A stretch of 33,627 nt of DNA from Lachnospiraceae bacterium. GTDB lineage: Bacteria > Bacillota > Clostridia > Lachnospirales > Lachnospiraceae. Positions 17,979 through 31,598 of this stretch are shown here, one piece after another. The notes beneath the pieces are model-generated. The model saw only the letters and a program-made list of their open reading frames with translations, did no database searches and had not been told where the DNA came from. The stretch spans positions 1-33,627 of the forward strand of contig JAEEIH010000219.1 of NCBI GenBank assembly GCA_016281275.1, written 5' to 3'. Positions within the stretch are counted from its first letter, which is position 1. Each line of letters opens with the position of its first letter. The translations under genes and the position numbers were made by a program.

Positions 17979-20900
17979 ATGATACAGTTAAACAGACAAA
18001 TCATACGGGCGCTTGCCTCAAGCGAACTCACTTATTCGAGGGGCGTAAGGTGCTTCAGAAACGGTAATGTTCGAAGAATGAGCACCGAGCGGCTCTCCGG
18101 AAAAATCCGTGTCGAGGTTGTTGACGGTGTCGAGTACACAGTCATGGTTTCGGAAGAAAACGGAGAAGTGAATTATACGTGCAATTGTGCCGGAAGCCTT
18201 AAGGAAAAAGGCGCCTGCAAGCATGTTATTGCTGCGCTTTTTGCAGTACTCAGACGTCAGGAAAAGAGCAGATTTGCCCGTATCGAATCGCCCGAGGACA
18301 GAAGGGCGTGCATGTGCATCGATCATTTCAGGAACACCGAGGACAGTGTGGGTGCCGTTGAGGTATTTCATCTTGAGCCCATAATCACCATACCCCAGAT
18401 GTTTTCGGATGATGAGAGCAGATGCTTTCTTTCGGTTAAGGTCGGCAAGGACAGACTGTACAAAGTTCAGAACCTTAAGCGCTTTGTGAGCGATTATCTT
18501 TCGCACCGGGATATAGATCTCGGTAAGGATGTAAAATTTGTCTGGTGTGAAAGCGAATTTGATAAATCTTCAAAGGAAATCCTTGATTTCATCATAGAGG
18601 GCTACGAACTTCTCGCACTGGGTGACGATATAGCGGGAACCAGAATCTTTAACAGAGCCATGATGATTCTTTCGAAGAATCTTCTCATGCGCCTTCTTAA
18701 CAGTGTCGGGAAATACACATTTACGCTCATTCTCGGAGAGAGAGTCTATGAAAATGTGAGAGTTTTTAATAAAAATCCCAACATCAGATATGATCTCGAT
18801 ATTGTGGATGATGCGATCCTGCTCGATTATCACGATAAAGAAGCGGTGATACCGCTCATGAAGAGCGGTGAACTTATATACTACAACGGAGCCGTGTTCG
18901 TTCCGGACGCGCGCTTCAGACGCAATTATGCGCCTTTCTTTAATAATCTCGGAACCGACAAGCCGCCCCTCATTTTCAGAGATGACAATAAAAAGAGGTT
19001 TCTCGAGGAAGTTCTCCCACGTATCGGTGACCTTATGGACATTGACGTTCCGGAAGAACTCGCCGATAGGTATATCTCGCCTGAGCTTTCGTGCAAGATT
19101 TTCTTTGACAGATATCAGAACGGGATAAAGGCTCAGGTCAGATTTGTTTATGACGAATTTGAGTTCAGCAGCTTTGAAAACCCTGACAGCGATCACTACA
19201 TCATCCTTCGCAGCAGAGACAAAGAGGATGATATTCTTGCGCGCCTTGAAGATCTCGGATTTGAAGCTCGTACAGGATTCTACCTTTTAAAGAATGAATC
19301 TGCGCTGTACGAATTCCTGATAAGCGATAAATCCACACTGACGGAAGTGGCACAGATTTACTATTCGGAAGACTTTAAGAAGCTTAAGGTTGTTTCGGGA
19401 GGAAGCTTTAATGTCGGACTCAGGGTAAGCAGCGATATGGACCTTTTACAGATGGAGTTCTCGTACGGCGATATGAGTCCTAAAGAGCTTGAGCGGTTGT
19501 TCCGTTCGCTCCGGGTCAAGAAAAAATATTACAGGCTTGAGAACGGAAGCTTTATAAACCTCATGGACGATGACTTTGAAAAGCTTGCCGTTATCATGGA
19601 CAATCTCGGTGTTACTTCAAAGAACTTTGTACAAGGCGGAATCAGACTCGCGAAGAGTAATGCTTTTTATCTTGACGGAGCTTTTGACAGAAGCGGATTC
19701 TCCGTCACAAAAAACGATGATTTCATCAAGCTGATCGAAAACATAAGCTCTGAGCACGAGGAAAGCTATATCATTCCCGAGGGCATAAACGCCGAACTTC
19801 GTGAATATCAGGTTCGCGGTTTCGGTTGGATGATGACGCTGGCACGCAACAGCCTCGGCGGAATTCTCGCCGACGATATGGGTCTCGGAAAAACGCTCCA
19901 GACGATCGTATATATACGTGCAATGCTTGACGGTCCGGAAAAACAGCATCCGCATTTTCTGATCGTTTGTCCGAGCTCGATAATCTATAACTGGATGGAC
20001 GAGTTTCAGAGTTTCGCGCCGGGCATTCGCGCCTGTGTCGTAACGGGAGTGCCCGAAGACAGAAAAAATCTTATTGCCGCATATGAGGATTATGATGTCC
20101 TTATCACATCATATCCGCTCATGAGACGCGATGTCGGGCTCTACAGAAAGATCATGTTCGGAACCGTTTTCCTTGACGAGGCACAGTTTATTAAGAATGC
20201 GGCTTCGCTTAATGCTCAATCCGTCAAGCTCCTTTGCGCGGATCACAGGTTTGCGCTTACCGGTACACCGATTGAGAATTCTCTCTCGGAGCTTTGGTCG
20301 ATATTTGATTTCATCATGCCGAACTTCCTGATGACACACAGCAAATTTGCCGCAAGATATGAGAAGCCCATCATAAACGGAGATAAGAATGTACTTGAGA
20401 ATCTCAACATGAGGATCAGCCCGTTCATTATGAGACGAATGAAGAAGGACGTGCTCAAGGAACTTCCCGGCAAGCTTGAGGAGAAGATCGTTACGCCGAT
20501 GTCAGAAGAGCAGCGTAACGTATATCTGTCCTACATGAATGAGATCCGGGGCGACTTGTTCGGCCGGATCGACGCGAACGGATTTGAAGGAAGCAAGATG
20601 AAAATACTTGCTGCTCTCACAAGACTCAGACAGATATGCTGTCATCCTTCGACATTCCTCGATAATTACAAGGGCGGAAGCGGAAAGCTCGACCTTCTCA
20701 TGCAACAGATTGACAACGCGATCGCCAACGAGCACAGGACTCTCGTGTTTTCGCAGTTTACGGGAATGCTGGAGATAATCGGCAGAGAACTTCAGTCAAA
20801 GGGAATAAACTATTTCTACCTCGATGGAAGCACGCCTCCCGAGGAACGTCTCGATATGGTAAAGAGGTTTAACGGCGGAGAGAACGACATTTTCCTGATC

Positions 20901-21194
20901 TCACTGAAGGCAGGCGGAACGGGACTCAACCTCATCGGTGCGGATACTGTCATCCACTATGATCCGTGGTGGAATCCTGCGGTAGAGGATCAGGCGACAG
21001 ACAGGGCGTACAGAATCGGACAGACTCAGAATGTATATGTGCTGAAACTTCTTACAAAAGGTACGATAGAGGAGAAGATATACAAGCTGCAGCAAAAAAA
21101 GAAGGAGCTCTCGGATTCATGCCTGACCGGAGGAGAAGTGTTCCTCAGCAAGCTTACTCGCGAAGAGCTCGAAGATATTTTTTCTTTTGATTGA
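17979..21194 (+). CDS. SNF2-family helicase with N-terminal SWIM zinc finger
   Basis: 1071 aa; CNCAGSLKEKGACKH (SWIM); GGILADDMGLGKTLQTI, FLDEAQFIKN, FALTGTPIENSLSELWSIFDF, GGTGLNLIGADTVIHYDPWWNPAVEDQATDRAYRIGQ. Confidence 0.96.
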   Translation: MIQLNRQIIRALASSELTYSRGVRCFRNGNVRRMSTERLSGKIRVEVVDGVEYTVMVSEENGEVNYTCNCAGSLKEKGACKHVIAALFAVLRRQEKSRFARIESPEDRRACMCIDHFRNTEDSVGAVEVFHLEPIITIPQMFSDDESRCFLSVKVGKDRLYKVQNLKRFVSDYLSHRDIDLGKDVKFVWCESEFDKSSKEILDFIIEGYELLALGDDIAGTRIFNRAMMILSKNLLMRLLNSVGKYTFTLILGERVYENVRVFNKNPNIRYDLDIVDDAILLDYHDKEAVIPLMKSGELIYYNGAVFVPDARFRRNYAPFFNNLGTDKPPLIFRDDNKKRFLEEVLPRIGDLMDIDVPEELADRYISPELSCKIFFDRYQNGIKAQVRFVYDEFEFSSFENPDSDHYIILRSRDKEDDILARLEDLGFEARTGFYLLKNESALYEFLISDKSTLTEVAQIYYSEDFKKLKVVSGGSFNVGLRVSSDMDLLQMEFSYGDMSPKELERLFRSLRVKKKYYRLENGSFINLMDDDFEKLAVIMDNLGVTSKNFVQGGIRLAKSNAFYLDGAFDRSGFSVTKNDDFIKLIENISSEHEESYIIPEGINAELREYQVRGFGWMMTLARNSLGGILADDMGLGKTLQTIVYIRAMLDGPEKQHPHFLIVCPSSIIYNWMDEFQSFAPGIRACVVTGVPEDRKNLIAAYEDYDVLITSYPLMRRDVGLYRKIMFGTVFLDEAQFIKNAASLNAQSVKLLCADHRFALTGTPIENSLSELWSIFDFIMPNFLMTHSKFAARYEKPIINGDKNVLENLNMRISPFIMRRMKKDVLKELPGKLEEKIVTPMSEEQRNVYLSYMNEIRGDLFGRIDANGFEGSKMKILAALTRLRQICCHPSTFLDNYKGGSGKLDLLMQQIDNAIANEHRTLVFSQFTGMLEIIGRELQSKGINYFYLDGSTPPEERLDMVKRFNGGENDIFLISLKAGGTGLNLIGADTVIHYDPWWNPAVEDQATDRAYRIGQTQNVYVLKLLTKGTIEEKIYKLQQKKKELSDSCLTGGEVFLSKLTREELEDIFSFD

Positions 21195-23474: not shown

Positions 23475-26180
23475 TTGATGAAAAATGACAATGTTAGAGA
23501 CAATGCGCTTTTTAAAACATCACACTTGATGATTCTCATAGCATATTCTTTGCTTTCGGTAGCGCTTATTGCCGAATCCCTGCTTATGGGTTGGGAAACC
23601 TGGATGGTTTATATTATCGGCATTTCGGTTCTCGGATGCTGGTTTATGCACGTTCAGAATGTTCTGACGCCATATCAGCGCCTTTGGGTATATTCTATAT
23701 TGATGATGGTAATCGCGGCTTTTTACGGCGTTCATCTTACCAGTACATATGACCTTGTGGGTGTTATTTCGGTTTGTATCGGATTGTTCACTCTGACCGG
23801 TGTTACGGCGCTGATATATTTGTGGCAGGTGACGTATTATCTGATTCTTGCCTATGATCTGGTACTTATGTGGAGTCAGGACTATCCATTTGACAGTCTG
23901 GTGATCTCGAGAACCATGCTCCATGTGTTCCTTATTGTCCTTGTGGGCTGGATATCCAGGATCATCATCAGGAGATGGGCAGAAATTCTTTATCGCTCCA
24001 AAGATGAAACCGAAATACTTCAGGGAGCTACCACGCGCCTGAATGATTTCCTTGCAAATGTATCACATGAGATCAGAACTCCGATCAATGCCGTTATCGG
24101 CCTTACCGATGTTTGTATTGAAAAAGTGGATAATCAGGATGTTCAAGAGGATCTGATTTCTGTCAAGGATGCAGGCAAACGTGTTGCGGAGCAGATCAGT
24201 GACATTTTGGATTATTCCGAGATAGACATGAAAAAGCTCGCTGTCAATGTGGAGCAGTACATGCTTTCTTCCGTTTTAAATGATGTTGTCACGGAAATGG
24301 CTTATATCAAACCGAAACATCTTGAACTTATTGTTGACGTGGATGCAGCATGTCCCGCTATGATGGTCACCGATGTTCCAAAGCTGAAAAAGATTTTATG
24401 GCACCTTATTTCCAACGGCTTGAAATATACAAAAGAAGGCGGCGTGTATGTTCATATATACTCCGTGACCCGTGAGTACGGCGTTAACCTTTGTATTGAA
24501 GTGGAAGATACGGGTATAGGTATGAGCCCGGAGGAGAGAGAGCACATCTACGAGCATTTCTATCAGGGCAATTCCGGAAGGACGAGGTCCACGAGCGGTC
24601 TCGGACTCGGTATGGCCATTGTTTCGGGATTTGTGAAGGTGCTCGGTGGTTTTATCATCATAGATTCCGAGCTCGGAAAAGGAACCAAGGTTAAGGTCTC
24701 CATTCCCCAGGATGTTATAGATCCGTCCAAGTGCATGTCTCTTAAGACAAAGGATGATATCAGCGTCGGAGCGTTCCTGCATTTTGATAAATTTGTCAAC
24801 CTTCAGGTTCGTGAATTTTATAACCTTATGGTTAAACACATCGTTCAGGGCCTCGGTGTCGTGATGCGCTGGGTTGAAACTGCGGACAAACTGCGTGAAT
24901 TGACGGATAACATGGAACTTACCCATTTGTTTGTGGGTGAAGAAGAATACATGGAGAATTCCGAGTTTATAGAAAGTCTTTCAAAGAGGATGGTTGTGGC
25001 CGTCATTGCCAATCCCAATTTCTGTCAGGTTCCCTGGTCGAAAATCAGGATATTACCGAAGCCGTTTTATTGCTTCCCTGTGGCAACCCTGCTTAACCAG
25101 GATCCTTCATTGGAAGAAAACAGAGTGGGCAGGCTCATGTGCAACGGCGTAAAAGCTCTGGTGGTTGACGACGAGCCCATGAATCACATGGTTGCCAACG
25201 GTATTTTCAGACGCTACGGCATGGAAGTATTTACGGCAAATTCAGGAAAAGAATCCATTGCCATGTGTGAGACCGACGATTACGATATCATTTTCATGGA
25301 TCATATGATGCCGGAGATGGACGGTATTGAGGCAATGAAACGTATCAGGACAGTTCTTTCGAGACGTCATAAAGATGTGCCCATAATCGCATTGACCGCA
25401 AATGCGGTAAGTACGGCGAAAAAAATGTTTCTCAGGGAGGGTTTCAACGGCTTTATCAGTAAGCCTATAGAGCTTTCGGAATTGGAGCGCGTACTTCGTA
25501 AAGTGATGCCCAAGGAGCTTTGCACCGATGTGTTTGAAACGGAAGAAGAGGCTTACGAGCGCACTGCGTCGAAAAAGACATCAGCGCAGTCCGAAAGCAA
25601 CAGGGAAGCAACAACGTCTCAGGAAATCATGTCCGAAGGCGTGCCGGAGCCGGATAAAACACTTTCTCCTTTGGAACAAGTGGCGGCTTTGGGTATCGAT
25701 ACAAAGACAGGTCTTTATTATTGCCAGAAAGACGAGGAATTTTACAGGAAGCTTCTTTTGCAATATGCCGGGGATGCTCCGAAGAAGCAGCAGGATGCCG
25801 AAAAATTCTTCGCCGGTAATGATTACCCCAATTATGAAATAGTTGTTCATGCTTTAAAGAGTACTTCCAAAATGATAGGCGCCGGAAAACTGAGCGAGTT
25901 GGCTTTGGCACTCGAAAATGCGGCTAAAGCCGAGGACGGTGAGTTTATCCGCACTCATCATGAGGCAGCCATGACCGAATACAAACGGCTGGTTGATGGA
26001 ATTATCAAAGCTTATGAAGAACCTGCGCAGGCTCAAAAGACCGAGGAAGTTGGGAATGCAGAGGATTCGGAATCGAACGGGGAAGATGAAGTTATGGAAT
26101 TTGCTCCCGATGACGAACCCGGCAATGACTCCGGGGGCGGCAATGACGAAGCTTTAGAGTTTTTGCCCGAGGAGGATTGA
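23475..26180 (+). CDS. Hybrid sensor histidine kinase: multi-TM sensor - HisKA - HATPase - degenerate REC-like region - REC - HPt
   Basis: 901 aa; LANVSHEIRTPINAVIGL H-box; EVEDTGIGMSPEER; LGLGMAIVSGFV; REC ALVVDDEPMNHMV...IIFMDHMMPEMDGIEAM; HPt-like IVVHALKSTSKMIGAGKLSELALALE. Confidence 0.93.
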   Translation: MMKNDNVRDNALFKTSHLMILIAYSLLSVALIAESLLMGWETWMVYIIGISVLGCWFMHVQNVLTPYQRLWVYSILMMVIAAFYGVHLTSTYDLVGVISVCIGLFTLTGVTALIYLWQVTYYLILAYDLVLMWSQDYPFDSLVISRTMLHVFLIVLVGWISRIIIRRWAEILYRSKDETEILQGATTRLNDFLANVSHEIRTPINAVIGLTDVCIEKVDNQDVQEDLISVKDAGKRVAEQISDILDYSEIDMKKLAVNVEQYMLSSVLNDVVTEMAYIKPKHLELIVDVDAACPAMMVTDVPKLKKILWHLISNGLKYTKEGGVYVHIYSVTREYGVNLCIEVEDTGIGMSPEEREHIYEHFYQGNSGRTRSTSGLGLGMAIVSGFVKVLGGFIIIDSELGKGTKVKVSIPQDVIDPSKCMSLKTKDDISVGAFLHFDKFVNLQVREFYNLMVKHIVQGLGVVMRWVETADKLRELTDNMELTHLFVGEEEYMENSEFIESLSKRMVVAVIANPNFCQVPWSKIRILPKPFYCFPVATLLNQDPSLEENRVGRLMCNGVKALVVDDEPMNHMVANGIFRRYGMEVFTANSGKESIAMCETDDYDIIFMDHMMPEMDGIEAMKRIRTVLSRRHKDVPIIALTANAVSTAKKMFLREGFNGFISKPIELSELERVLRKVMPKELCTDVFETEEEAYERTASKKTSAQSESNREATTSQEIMSEGVPEPDKTLSPLEQVAALGIDTKTGLYYCQKDEEFYRKLLLQYAGDAPKKQQDAEKFFAGNDYPNYEIVVHALKSTSKMIGAGKLSELALALENAAKAEDGEFIRTHHEAAMTEYKRLVDGIIKAYEEPAQAQKTEEVGNAEDSESNGEDEVMEFAPDDEPGNDSGGGNDEALEFLPEED

Positions 26181-26183
26181 GCC

Positions 26184-28889
26184 ATGAGAAAATATTTTGA
26201 ACGAAATCGTGAGACGGAAAAAGTTGTATACCAGTCTGCAGTAAAGGTTGACTTCTGGTTTTTCGTGGGGATCACCATATATGAGATCTTCCATATGGTA
26301 TATACTTTTGTTTTTGCGGAGGACTACGGCGAGCTCGTCATCTGGTCCAGGCTTTCCTATGGGATCTCGGGAGTGGCTACACTATTCTTTTCGGTGGCAT
26401 GTTTCTATGTCATGAAGGATTTTGAGAGGCGATATAAGATCCTCAAATATGCCAATATACTGAATACCTTCTCTTTATTGGGACTTTCGGTTGCCGTTAC
26501 GATACTTGACCAGATAAGGTCGGGGGTTATGGACACATCTCTTATCATCGTCATGTCGCTTATTATGCCGATGCTCCTTTACATGCCGCTGTCCGCATAT
26601 CTGACCATATTCCTTCTTACCAACGGATCGGTACTGTATTACTACATTACGCTGGCTATGCAAGACGGCGTGAAGTACAGAGCGGTCAAGTATTTCGCCA
26701 TTTACATGGTTATCTCGGTAATCTTAAGTATCATCGTAATGTATGTAAAATACAGTATGTACGCGAGAATACTCGAATCCAACAGGCAGAAGGACGAGAT
26801 CGAAAAACTGAATGCTGCGCAGAACCGTTTCTTTTCATCCATGAGCCATGAGATACGTACGCCCATAAACACCATCATCGGTCTTAACGAGATGATCCTG
26901 CGTGAAAATGTCTCCGAAGAGATCAACGAGGACGCGGCGAATATCAGATCTGCCGGCAATATGCTCCTTCACCTCATTAACGACATCCTCGATATGTCAA
27001 AGCTCGATTCGGGGCAGATGGAGCTGACCCCCGTATCGTACAGAACCGGAGATATGCTCTCCGATATTGTGGGAATGCTCTGGATACGTGCAAAGGATAA
27101 GGGACTGGAGTTTAAGATCGATGTTGCTCCCGATCTTCCGGGTGAGTTGTTCGGTGACGAGGTCAGAATCAAGCAGATCCTTATAAACGTTTTAAACAAC
27201 GCTATCAAGTACACCAAAGAGGGATCGGTTACATTAAATATCCAGTGCAGAAGAGAAGAAAGCAATAACGTTACGGTTATTTATTCCGTTTCGGATACGG
27301 GTATGGGTATCAAAAAGGAGAGCATCCCGTATCTGTTCACCGCATTTAAGCGGGTTGACGAGACTAAAAACAGGTACATTGAAGGAACGGGTCTGGGACT
27401 CTCTATCGTTAAGCAGCTCGTCGATATCATGGGCGGTAAGATAACCGTCAACTCCGTTTATACAAAGGGAACCACATTTATCATAGAAATCCCTCAAAGA
27501 TCGGTATCGGGAAGTACCATAGGTGCGATAGACCTTTCGAAGCGCAGCAGCATCATGCACATGGAAAGCTATCATCAGAGCTTTGAGGCGCCTGAGGCCA
27601 ATGTCCTTGTTGTGGATGATACCGAGACCAATCTTATGGTCGTTGAGAAGCTCCTTCGCGGTACAAAGGTCAATGTTGTTACTGCAAACAGCGCAAGAGC
27701 GGCTCTTAAAAAAACGGTTGAGATGCAGTTCCACGTTATATTTATGGATCACCTTATGCCGGAAATCGACGGCGTCGAATGTATGCACATGATCCGCGAC
27801 CAAAAGGGCGGACTCTGCAGAGAATCGAAGATCGTTGCCCTTACCGCCAATGCCGGCGGTGATATCAAGGCTCTTTATGTAAGAGAAGGATTTGATGGTT
27901 ATCTGGTTAAACCGGTAAGCGGAGAGGCTCTTGAAAATGAGCTTCGACGTCTTCTTCCGAAAGAACTTGTTACGGTTACCACCGGCGGAGGAGAGATTGT
28001 CGAAGAGAGTACCCTTTGGATCAAAGATCACCAGGCCAAGGCAGAGGTTGTTATTACGGCGGAATCCGTTGCCGATATTCCGCAGGAACTCGTGGACAGG
28101 TATCATATCAAGGTTGTTCCTCATTTGGTAAGCACGGAGGCGGGTATTTTCCAGGATGGACTTGAAATCGACACCACAGGGCTACTGTCATACATGGAAG
28201 ATGAAAACAAATTTGCAATAACCCTGGCTCCCGATGTTGCCTATCATGAAGCATTTTTTGCAAAACAGCTGGAGCATGCAAACAACGTGATTCATATCTC
28301 GATATCCTCCGCAATGGAGAGGTCGGCGTGTCACGCGGCGGCCGAAGCGTGCAAGTCATTTGACAATGTATTTGTTATAGATTCCGGACACCTTTCGAGC
28401 GGTCAGGGTCTCCTTACAATCGAAGCTGCCAGACTTGCGGAAGAGGGATACGGTGCCACGGAGATTGTGGAAAGGATTCTCGCTTGCAGAGAAAGGGTTC
28501 ACACCAGCTTTATGGTTGATTCCATGGACTACCTTGCAAGAGCCGGGCAGATCGGCAAGAAAACGGCGGATATCGTAAAGGCCCTCATGATCCGACCTGT
28601 ACTTGCCATGAAGAAAGGGAAGCTTTCATTGGGCGGTTTTTATTTCGGAAGCAGGGATGGCGCATGGAAAAGATATATCTCGTCGGCTCTCAATACGATC
28701 AATAAGATAGACACCCGTATGCTGTTTGTTACATACGTCAGTCTTAATGAAAAAGAGAAAAAAGAAATTGCCGATGAGATAGCCAAAAAGATGAGCTTTG
28801 ACAAAATCTACTTTCATCAGGCATCTCCGGTCATAGCGGTTAATTGCGGTCCGGGAACTTTCGGGTTGTTGTTCATGACCGAAAAGTAA
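26184..28889 (+). CDS. Hybrid histidine kinase fused to a DegV-like domain: multi-TM sensor - HisKA - HATPase - REC - DegV
   Basis: 901 aa; SSMSHEIRTPINTIIGL; SVSDTGMGIKKESIPYLF; GTGLGLSIVKQLV; REC NVLVVDDTETNLMV...IFMDHLMPEIDGVECM; C-terminal ~280 aa matches the DegV pattern (VVITAESVADIPQELVDRYHIKVVPHLV, IHISISSAMERSACHAAAEA, VFVIDSGHLSSGQGLLTIEAARLAEEG, MDYLARAGQIGK, GPGTFGLLF). Confidence 0.9.
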   Translation: MRKYFERNRETEKVVYQSAVKVDFWFFVGITIYEIFHMVYTFVFAEDYGELVIWSRLSYGISGVATLFFSVACFYVMKDFERRYKILKYANILNTFSLLGLSVAVTILDQIRSGVMDTSLIIVMSLIMPMLLYMPLSAYLTIFLLTNGSVLYYYITLAMQDGVKYRAVKYFAIYMVISVILSIIVMYVKYSMYARILESNRQKDEIEKLNAAQNRFFSSMSHEIRTPINTIIGLNEMILRENVSEEINEDAANIRSAGNMLLHLINDILDMSKLDSGQMELTPVSYRTGDMLSDIVGMLWIRAKDKGLEFKIDVAPDLPGELFGDEVRIKQILINVLNNAIKYTKEGSVTLNIQCRREESNNVTVIYSVSDTGMGIKKESIPYLFTAFKRVDETKNRYIEGTGLGLSIVKQLVDIMGGKITVNSVYTKGTTFIIEIPQRSVSGSTIGAIDLSKRSSIMHMESYHQSFEAPEANVLVVDDTETNLMVVEKLLRGTKVNVVTANSARAALKKTVEMQFHVIFMDHLMPEIDGVECMHMIRDQKGGLCRESKIVALTANAGGDIKALYVREGFDGYLVKPVSGEALENELRRLLPKELVTVTTGGGEIVEESTLWIKDHQAKAEVVITAESVADIPQELVDRYHIKVVPHLVSTEAGIFQDGLEIDTTGLLSYMEDENKFAITLAPDVAYHEAFFAKQLEHANNVIHISISSAMERSACHAAAEACKSFDNVFVIDSGHLSSGQGLLTIEAARLAEEGYGATEIVERILACRERVHTSFMVDSMDYLARAGQIGKKTADIVKALMIRPVLAMKKGKLSLGGFYFGSRDGAWKRYISSALNTINKIDTRMLFVTYVSLNEKEKKEIADEIAKKMSFDKIYFHQASPVIAVNCGPGTFGLLFMTEK

Positions 28890-28959: not shown

Positions 28960-29106
28960 TCGCAGTGTTGCCGTGCATCCCGGAATATGACGAAGCTACG
29001 TGACCGGGATATGTAATTCGCGGGGACGTACCTGAATAACATTTTGGCCGTGTCGGATACATCGTATCGGTGTCGGCGATCATTATTTTGGAGAGTCGGG
29101 GGGATT

Positions 29107-29793
29107 ATGGAGTTTTTTGCTACAATCTCGGAACAATTCTATAAATGCTTCATTAAGGATGACAGGTACAAGCTGCTTCTCGGAGGAATCGGTGTAACCC
29201 TCAAGGTGTCGCTTGTCGCAATCGTTCTGGGTATCATCATCGGCTTTTTTATTGCGGTATGCAATCTTTCAAAGAAGAAAGTGCTTCGTGGGATAGGTCT
29301 CGTTTATACCGATGTTATCCGCGGTACACCGTCCGTTACACAGTTGATGCTCATCTATTTTGTGGCGTTTGCGGCTGTGCAATGGGATAAGTGGATCATA
29401 TGCGCCATAGCGTTCGGTATCAATTCGGGCGGTTATGTTGCCGAAGTTATAAGAGCCGGGATTCTCTCCATCGACAAAGGACAGACTGAGGCGGGAAGGT
29501 CTCTCGGACTTAACGGCAGACAGACGATGACACACATCATCCTTCCGCAAGCGATCAAGAACATCTTCCCTGCGCTCGTTAACGAATTTATCGTGCTTAT
29601 CAAGGAAACTGCGATCGTCGGTTATGTCGGTCTCGTTGACATCCAGAAAGCCGGAGATTTCATTAAGAGCACCACGTTCCTCGCATTTATGCCGCTGCTT
29701 GCGACCGCGATCATCTATTACGTGATAATCAAGATCCTGAATATAGGTCTCAAACGTATTGAAAAGAAGCTGAGACAGTCGGAAATCAGGTGA
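29107..29793 (+). CDS. Polar amino acid ABC transporter permease (HisM/GlnP-like)
   Basis: In-frame ATG at 29107; GIGVTLKVSLVAIVLGIIIG, VYTDVIRGTPSVTQLML, EAGRSLGLNGRQTMTHIILPQAIKNIFPALVNEFIVLIKETAIVGYVG. Confidence 0.93.
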   Translation: MEFFATISEQFYKCFIKDDRYKLLLGGIGVTLKVSLVAIVLGIIIGFFIAVCNLSKKKVLRGIGLVYTDVIRGTPSVTQLMLIYFVAFAAVQWDKWIICAIAFGINSGGYVAEVIRAGILSIDKGQTEAGRSLGLNGRQTMTHIILPQAIKNIFPALVNEFIVLIKETAIVGYVGLVDIQKAGDFIKSTTFLAFMPLLATAIIYYVIIKILNIGLKRIEKKLRQSEIR

Positions 29794-29887
29794 CGACGCC
29801 AAATGGGATTACAACAGAAGAATAGCGCGAAAGTGTAACACATTTGGAAGATCAGGATAAGACGATAATTGTAACGGGGAATCAGGC

Positions 29888-30610
29888 ATGATAAAAATAT
29901 ATAATCTTAAGAAAAATTTTAATGATCTTGAAGTTTTAAAGGGTGTGAGTGAACACATCCGACCGGGTGAGGTCGTTTCGGTAATCGGACCCTCGGGTTC
30001 GGGCAAGTCGACATTCCTGCGATGCATCAATTTGCTTGAGGAAGTCACCGAGGGTGAGATATACGTTGATGAAGAGCTTATCACGGCTCCGGGAGTCGAC
30101 ATAAACCTTATCCGTCAGAAGATGGGCATGGTTTTCCAGCAGTTCAATCTCTTCCCTCACCTTAAGATCATTGATAACATCACACTTGCACCCGTCCTTC
30201 TTAAAAAGATGACAAAAGAAGAAGCAAAGGCTAAAGCGCTTGAGCTTCTCGCGAGAGTCGGGCTTTCGGACAAGGCCGATTCTTATCCCGCATCGCTTTC
30301 GGGCGGACAGAAGCAGCGTGTTGCGATCGCAAGGGCTCTTGCGATGAATCCCGAGATTATGCTCTTTGACGAGCCGACCTCGGCGCTCGACCCCGAGATG
30401 GTAGGCGAAGTTCTTGATGTTATCAAGAGTCTTGCCGAGTCAGGAATGACGATGGTGGTCGTTACACATGAGATGGGGTTTGCAAGGGAAGTTTCGTCGA
30501 GAGTTCTTTTTATGGATCAGGGTATCATCATGGAGAGCGGAACCCCCGCCGAGATATTTGATAACCCTCAAAACGAAAGAACAAAGCTTTTCCTCAGTAA
30601 AGTTTTATAA
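29888..30610 (+). CDS. Polar amino acid ABC transporter ATP-binding protein (GlnQ-like)
   Basis: Walker [50 protein letters not shown]. Confidence 0.97.
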
Positions 30611-30713
30611 AAGAGCCGGTCGGGCGTGATACACGGGAAGGCAATATAGGCGTTATTCTTCTGCGGGGATGTAAAGAAGGATGATAAACTGAAAACTATC
30701 TTCGCCCGGGATA

Positions 30714-30742
30714 TTGAAAACTGTCGGACACGGTGATATGCT
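30714..30742 (+). promoter_or_regulatory. Candidate sigma-A promoter for the solute-binding protein gene
   Basis: TTGAAA (30714-30719), 17-nt spacer, TATGCT (30737-30742). Confidence 0.6.
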
Positions 30743-30839
30743 GACATAACAGTCGCATCATAATCAGGAGTTTGTTACTCCGTGCGCATATGATGGATAA
30801 TCAGTGGCACAAAACATGCCGCTAAATAGGAGGCAAAAA

Positions 30840-31598
30840 ATGAAAAAAACAAAAAGGATCATCGCTGCCGTACTTGTTGCAATCCTTACGGTTGCATGTC
30901 TTACGGCTTGCGGAAAGAAAACAGAGGGTATCATTAAGTTCGGAACAAACGCAGAGTTCCCGCCTTTCGAGTTTGTTGCTGCAAACGGTGTGATCGGTGA
31001 GTTCGACGGTATCGATATCGCAATCGCTAAACAGATCGGCGAAGACATCAACATGGAAGCAAAGATCGAGAACATGGAATTCGATTCTCTCCTTGTTGCA
31101 CTTCAGAACAAGCAGATCGACGCTGTTATCGCAGGTATGACGGTTACAGAGGAGCGTGCCGAGTCGGTTGATTTCTCAACCCCTTACTACTCGGCAACTC
31201 AGGTTATCATCACAAAGGAAGGTTCGGGCATCAAGTCCGCAGCCGATCTTGCAGACAAGTTCACCTCGGTTGTTCAGGGATACACAGGTGAGACATGTAT
31301 CGTTGACCTCGGCTACAGGTACGAGTCTTTCAAGAAGGGCACAGAGTGCGTTATGGAGCTTGTGAACGGTAAGTGTGACGCAGTTGTTATCGACTCCGCT
31401 ACAGCTTCCAAGTACGTTGCCGACAATAAGGGTCTTGTCATCGTTGAGGATCCCGCAGTGTTCGGTAACGAGGAGTACGCTATTGCAGTGGCAAAAGGAA
31501 ACAAGGAACTCCTTGACAAGATCAACGCTTCGATCGAGAAGATGCTTGCAAACGGTACCATCGCATCTCTCGGTGACAAGTACTGCAGCGCAGAGTAA
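30840..31598 (+). CDS. Amino acid ABC transporter substrate-binding lipoprotein
   Basis: Signal peptide and lipobox VACLTACG; IKFGTNAEFPPFEFVAANGVIGEFDGIDIAIAKQIGED; ATG at 30840 after AGGAGG. Confidence 0.95.
   Translation: MKKTKRIIAAVLVAILTVACLTACGKKTEGIIKFGTNAEFPPFEFVAANGVIGEFDGIDIAIAKQIGEDINMEAKIENMEFDSLLVALQNKQIDAVIAGMTVTEERAESVDFSTPYYSATQVIITKEGSGIKSAADLADKFTSVVQGYTGETCIVDLGYRYESFKKGTECVMELVNGKCDAVVIDSATASKYVADNKGLVIVEDPAVFGNEEYAIAVAKGNKELLDKINASIEKMLANGTIASLGDKYCSAE

Follow-up and report, generated by a model that had tools for sequence, protein, structure and literature searches.

DegV proteins are known to carry fatty acids as separate, unfused polypeptides. In multikinase or split-Hpt relays (Rcs RcsC/RcsD; GacS/RetS), membrane kinases act jointly via a shared Hpt, and in the RpfC/RpfG system a hybrid kinase with an Hpt controls a REC-HD-GYP phosphodiesterase, RpfC itself sensing a fatty-acid-like signal. 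In FakB1, the Ser95-Thr62-His270 network holds the fatty-acid carboxylate, catalysis depends on Arg173 (the R173A variant has no activity), and Arg205, also involved in membrane binding, is the central residue for the binding of FakA; both arginines are called completely conserved across the FakB family (PMC8892158).

The window, i.e., the whole stretch of 33,627 nucleotides from a Lachnospiraceae bacterium analyzed here, encodes a DegV domain fused behind a histidine kinase and a receiver (HK-REC-DegV), directly preceded by a second hybrid kinase (HK-REC-Hpt; Table 1). The architecture, residue losses, pairing, one-Hpt rule, and operon association described below are read from sequence comparison.

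Table 1. Coordinates, strand and supporting evidence of the window features
Feature	Position	Strand	Basis
Partner hybrid kinase HK-REC-Hpt, 901 aa	23475..26180	+	ORF, Pfam, neighborhood comparison
HisKA of partner kinase (His198)	24039..24227	+	Pfam, motif
HATPase_c of partner kinase	24372..24710	+	Pfam
Receiver of partner kinase	25158..25493	+	Pfam; D565, D566, D609, K663 conserved
Hpt of partner kinase	25695..25991	+	Pfam 760-825, own profile 741-839, HALKS at aa 792
Ribosome-binding-like site of fused gene	26169..26175	+	GAGGAGG
Fused hybrid kinase HK-REC-DegV	26184..28889	+	ORF, Pfam, residue conservation
N-terminal multi-TM sensor region, about aa 1-200	26184..26790	+	hydrophobic stretches in translation
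HisKA of fused kinase	26817..27014	+	phospho-acceptor His222 in SHEIRTPIN, invariant in 38 homologs
HATPase_c of fused kinase	27153..27500	+	Pfam
Receiver domain of fused kinase	27603..27944	+	Asp522 in MDHLMPEIDG
Linker REC-DegV	27945..28046	+	joint model
DegV/EDD domain (pseudo-FakB)	28047..28880	+	Pfam, model, residue mapping
Polar amino-acid ABC transporter	29044..31598		
SNF2-family helicase	17979..21194		

Architecture and distribution of the fused kinase

The fused gene is a single ORF of 901 aa, free of internal stops, with all four Pfam domains far over their cut-offs: HisKA (aa 212-277, E 4e-18), HATPase_c (324-439, 3e-27), Response_reg (474-587, 4e-19), and DegV (PF02645, 622-899, E 2e-46, with a score of 159 bits where the cut-off is 27). 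The DegV match spans profile positions 2-279 of 280, i.e., the full length, and TIGR00762 also exceeds its own cut-off. No family was matched by the Pfam scan in the N-terminal sensor region. The elements of a hybrid histidine kinase (the HisKA histidine, the N and G boxes of the HATPase, and the Asp, Thr, and Lys of the receiver) are present and invariant in 38 fused homologs, with H222, N339, D478/D479, D522, T554, and K576 as the catalytic residues.

The AlphaFold2 model of the DegV part (mean pLDDT 92.9, pTM 0.90) has the two-lobed EDD fold, and the 45 PDB entries that match it best are without exception DegV/FakB proteins, mostly solved as fatty-acid binders and headed by 2dt8 (E 3e-26, TM 0.84); the full-length profile match and the fold place the domain in the DegV/FakB family (PF02645). 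The joint REC-DegV model (pTM 0.63) consists of two well-folded domains and a disordered linker, whose central 18 residues have pLDDT values below 50 and are predicted to be flexible. The joint model gives no fixed interface between REC and DegV, and, with the linker flexible, no direct contact between the two domains is predicted.

Searches among relatives and across the order gave 41 fused genes, and a scan of GTDB species genomes returned 466 related stretches. The best 80 of the 466, which were examined, are fused except for two cut by contig ends; their sources are chiefly Lachnospiraceae and Ruminococcaceae/Oscillospiraceae-type clostridia of the rumen and gut, isolates included. When the class and the phylum were sampled evenly under a strict threshold, fused forms were confined to the family of the window and a single genus of a different family, so the spread of the fusion is narrow but real. 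A full-length relative of the fused protein was not found in the plasmid records searched. The fused DegVs occupy one side of a branch against the standalone DegVs (SH-aLRT 99), and the fusion appears as one clade under purifying selection that recurs in rumen and gut clostridia.

Because the sequence comes from a fragmented draft assembly (220 contigs, with a completeness of 83%), a sequencing frameshift or an assembly chimera might be suspected of having joined two genes. However, the same genome carries a second HK-REC-DegV gene, a paralog, on another contig (C188), and dozens of independent genomes share the fusion; an artefact is therefore rejected, its probability being negligible.

An initial annotation had described the sensor, HisKA, HATPase, an intact receiver, and a DegV domain starting near 28045 within one ORF, and had called for Pfam scans (PF02645, receiver, HATPase, and HisKA) and a structural model of the DegV region. 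Both were carried out, and this architecture is borne out, including the receiver (D478, D479, D522, T554, and K576 being invariant in the 38 homologs) and the DegV start, found at about 28047. None of the outcomes it had named as damaging, i.e., absence of a DegV profile match, a structure without the EDD fold, or a frameshift merging two genes, occurred.

Some copies deviate from the common pattern. Fused genes at L188-L190 (genus g195, family f66) are 53-56% identical to the window DegV part and closer to it than many copies from its own family, which might reflect horizontal transfer. At L109, L143, and L185 the fused ORFs are short (588-629 aa) and no full partner kinase adjoins them; these may be frameshifts or split genes.

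FakB-defining residues in the fused DegV domains

Positions are given here in FakB2 numbering, with the 4x9x alignment as the mapping reference; the FakB2 equivalents are Ser93, Thr61, His266, Arg170, and Arg202, whose letters and numbers agree with this alignment. In the window DegV, Thr61 is kept, but Glu stands at position 93, Gln at 170, Phe at 202, and Asn at 266, leaving the domain without the two arginines of a FakA partner and without a complete Thr61-Ser93-His266 carboxylate network. Among the 123 distinct fused sequences, Arg170 (catalysis with FakA) is lost in 116 and kept in 7, and Arg202 (FakA and membrane docking) is lost in 121 and kept in 2; Asn replaces His266 in 119 of 120 sequences (His being kept in 1). 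Standalone DegVs keep both arginines in 39/39 cases and the histidine in 38/39 (41 were scored, and two that are fused genes cut at contig ends were left out).

None of the 123 fused DegVs has Arg170, Arg202, and His266 together. This absence, along with the inactivity of R173A FakB1 and the key part of Arg205 in FakA binding (FakB1 numbering; PMC8892158), led to the rejection of a functional FakB partner of FakA that is merely tethered to a kinase; despite the shared fold and the FakA-like gene beside a standalone DegV in the source genome, such a role is highly improbable.

The fold itself is kept. The invariants D13, D40, A102, S119, F157, P186, G203, and G268 are present in the fused DegVs, 53 of 61 hydrophobic columns are unchanged, and dN/dS of the fused DegV part is ~0.09, which marks selective replacement rather than decay; a decaying domain was accordingly rejected. 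Judged by its residues, the fused DegV domain is a pseudo-FakB, with the fold maintained and the FakB-defining residues replaced. The Glu found in place of the carboxylate-binding Ser speaks against FakB-like binding of an ordinary fatty-acid carboxylate.

The kinase pair, its Hpt, and the neighboring genes

The upstream partner kinase is conserved and was absent from the initial annotation. Its start codon is a TTG at 23475 or an ATG at 23478, its stop lies 3 bases ahead of the ATG of the fused gene, and the ribosome-binding-like site of the fused gene falls within its 3' end, a position that amounts to tight coupling of both genes. The partner is present upstream in 34/41 fused loci, the remaining ones being mostly contig ends, and it occurs with an Hpt at 70 of the best 80 of the 466 loci, a set that overlaps the former. 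For the two kinases, distances are correlated (r 0.88, 0/2000 permutations), and same-genome paralogs mostly track their own partner; such co-evolution is as expected for one functional unit. Between the HATPase and the receiver of the partner (about aa 430-550), ~120 aa without a Pfam match resemble a degenerate receiver.

The strongest rival to a sensory role of the DegV domain is a ligand-free structural or docking scaffold, a recruited FakB fold that serves dimerization or makes contact with the Hpt or the partner kinase. The loss of the carboxylate-binding and FakA-docking residues and the strict coupling of the fused kinase to a single partner are in keeping with it, but the Asn conserved in place of His266 in 119/120 sequences and the retained Ser119, Phe157, and hydrophobic core look more like a re-tuned than an empty site, and a pure scaffold is rather unlikely.

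The Hpt of the partner kinase is the only one of the window pair. Exactly one intact Hpt per kinase pair was found in 36/36 resolvable loci: on the upstream kinase in 24, behind DegV in 10, and on a third protein in 2 (L082 and L101), where the Hpt of the upstream kinase is without its histidine. Each resolvable pair or triple thus has the one intact Hpt histidine of a phosphorelay. The 10 loci with the Hpt behind DegV form, together with one partial case, a single 11-member subclade, in which DegV is placed between REC and a C-terminal Hpt. As this placement is one event in the tree, the one-Hpt rule represents two or three evolutionary changes, not 36. The subclade also suggests that DegV is an internal module of the relay and not its end point.

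A REC-GGDEF and/or REC-HD-GYP gene is located beside the pair, on the same strand, at 60 of the best 80 of the 466 loci and at 14/42 other loci (again always on the same strand), compared with 0/20 control windows taken from genomes of a similar kind (p 3e-10 and 0.003, respectively, by Fisher test, for related loci that are not independent). These genes, mostly directly upstream of the pair, encode REC-HD-GYP, REC-GGDEF, or REC-GGDEF-REC-HD-GYP proteins (by Pfam, with the GGDEF, HD, and GYP motifs visible). Cultured relatives such as Lachnospiraceae bacterium G41 and Ruminococcaceae bacterium AB4001 (loci L163 and L148) are among the carriers of the operon. No c-di-GMP gene adjoins the window's own pair. 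Next to the second copy in the source genome (C188) lies a REC-HD-GYP gene that shares 71% identity with its counterpart in the close relative L113; GGDEF matches in this genome number 17. Altogether, the gene neighborhood suggests that c-di-GMP enzymes and small REC proteins serve as outputs.

These observations bear on the output proposed in the initial annotation, in which REC phosphorylation would control lipid uptake, release, or transfer by DegV. The domain does sit directly C-terminal to REC, the usual place of an output domain in ordinary response regulators, but the relay runs past it to the Hpt in the 11-member subclade, the neighboring genes supply other outputs, and Arg202 and Arg170, needed in FakB for membrane/FakA contact and catalysis (PMC8892158), are lost; a DegV output is therefore improbable. 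What stands of the earlier interpretation is a DegV/FakB fold that belongs to a phosphorelay and follows a kinase and a receiver which both appear active, while a normal FakB-like fatty-acid binder (Ser93, His266, Arg170, and Arg202 being changed in most of the fused clade) and a non-transcriptional DegV output are not supported.

Several further genes lie near the pairs. A polar amino-acid ABC transporter (permease, ATPase, and binding protein) follows the fused kinase in the window, and an SBP_bac_3 protein likewise follows the second copy (L065); the transporter is not a conserved neighbor of the fused gene and was therefore left out of the system. Near the second copy, a third large hybrid kinase with a dCache sensor and a C-terminal Hpt (L065, 7881-12038) lies upstream of the REC-HD-GYP gene, and large kinases resembling it occur in L075, L080, and L081. 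The SNF2-family helicase of the window is partly similar to pilus_reg_Snf2, below the cut-off of that profile.

A proposed relay and its relation to known systems

The preferred reading is a two-kinase, Hpt-sharing phosphorelay with DegV as a regulatory ligand-binding module, feeding c-di-GMP enzymes; its chances of being right or wrong are about equal. The adjacent genes would form one signaling unit of two membrane hybrid kinases and, because these share a single Hpt, a His-Asp-His phosphorelay. The pseudo-FakB domain, with its EDD fold and hydrophobic core but without the residues for carboxylate holding and FakA work, most likely has a regulatory (sensory) role in the cytoplasm, with a lipid-like or another small molecule as its ligand. 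We infer phosphotransfer between the proteins and a direction of control in which ligand-bound DegV alters how phosphoryl groups pass from the REC of its own protein to the shared Hpt. The relay would most likely set the phosphorylation of the REC-GGDEF and REC-HD-GYP proteins; in most relatives their genes share an operon with the pair, and in the source genome a REC-HD-GYP gene adjoins the second copy. The lack of a c-di-GMP gene at the window pair, the Glu at the Ser site, the flexible linker, and the small number of evolutionary changes behind the one-Hpt rule count against this reading.

A fused kinase, an altered domain, a second kinase, and c-di-GMP enzymes together suggest an undescribed signaling circuit. 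Tentatively, and with slightly less than even probability, it may represent an undescribed class of gut-Clostridia phosphorelays, in which a pseudo-FakB in an obligately paired kinase senses a cytoplasmic lipid-like metabolite and gates the flow to c-di-GMP synthases/phosphodiesterases. The component families are known; a DegV-kinase fusion, the residue replacement, the pairing, and the c-di-GMP association were not found in the literature searched, which misses most subscription papers. That a whole clade has been recruited into kinases, its FakA/fatty-acid residues altered while selection maintains the fold, suggests that the DegV fold has been put to a new sensory use, and strict kinase pairing, a single shared Hpt, and c-di-GMP neighbors constitute a testable circuit in common rumen bacteria. 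Fused DegV proteins should not be annotated as fatty-acid kinase partners.

The window domain shares with FakB/DegV proteins (PF02645; S. aureus FakB1/FakB2, 4x9x, 2dt8) the full-length two-lobed EDD fold, the hydrophobic core, and the fold invariants, but it is fused behind HK-REC, has Arg170, Arg202, Ser93, and His266 replaced, and belongs to a clade of its own. Hybrid histidine kinases with an Hpt (BarA, ArcB, and TorS type) have the same HisKA-HATPase-REC core, and the HK-REC-Hpt partner offers a complete His-Asp-His relay; here, however, two paired kinases share one Hpt, and one of them carries DegV after REC. Rcs and GacS/RetS likewise join membrane kinases through a shared Hpt, whereas the present system has other sensors, a DegV module, a strict adjacent gene pair, and c-di-GMP enzymes nearby. 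The hybrid kinase adjoining REC-HD-GYP, at the loci with such a gene, is common to RpfC/RpfG, from which the present system differs by its second kinase with DegV, its occurrence in Clostridia, and the frequent REC-GGDEF-REC-HD-GYP architecture; an adjoining gene of the REC-HD-GYP/REC-GGDEF type, missing at the window locus, is present at the second copy and in the 60 relatives among the best 80 of 466.
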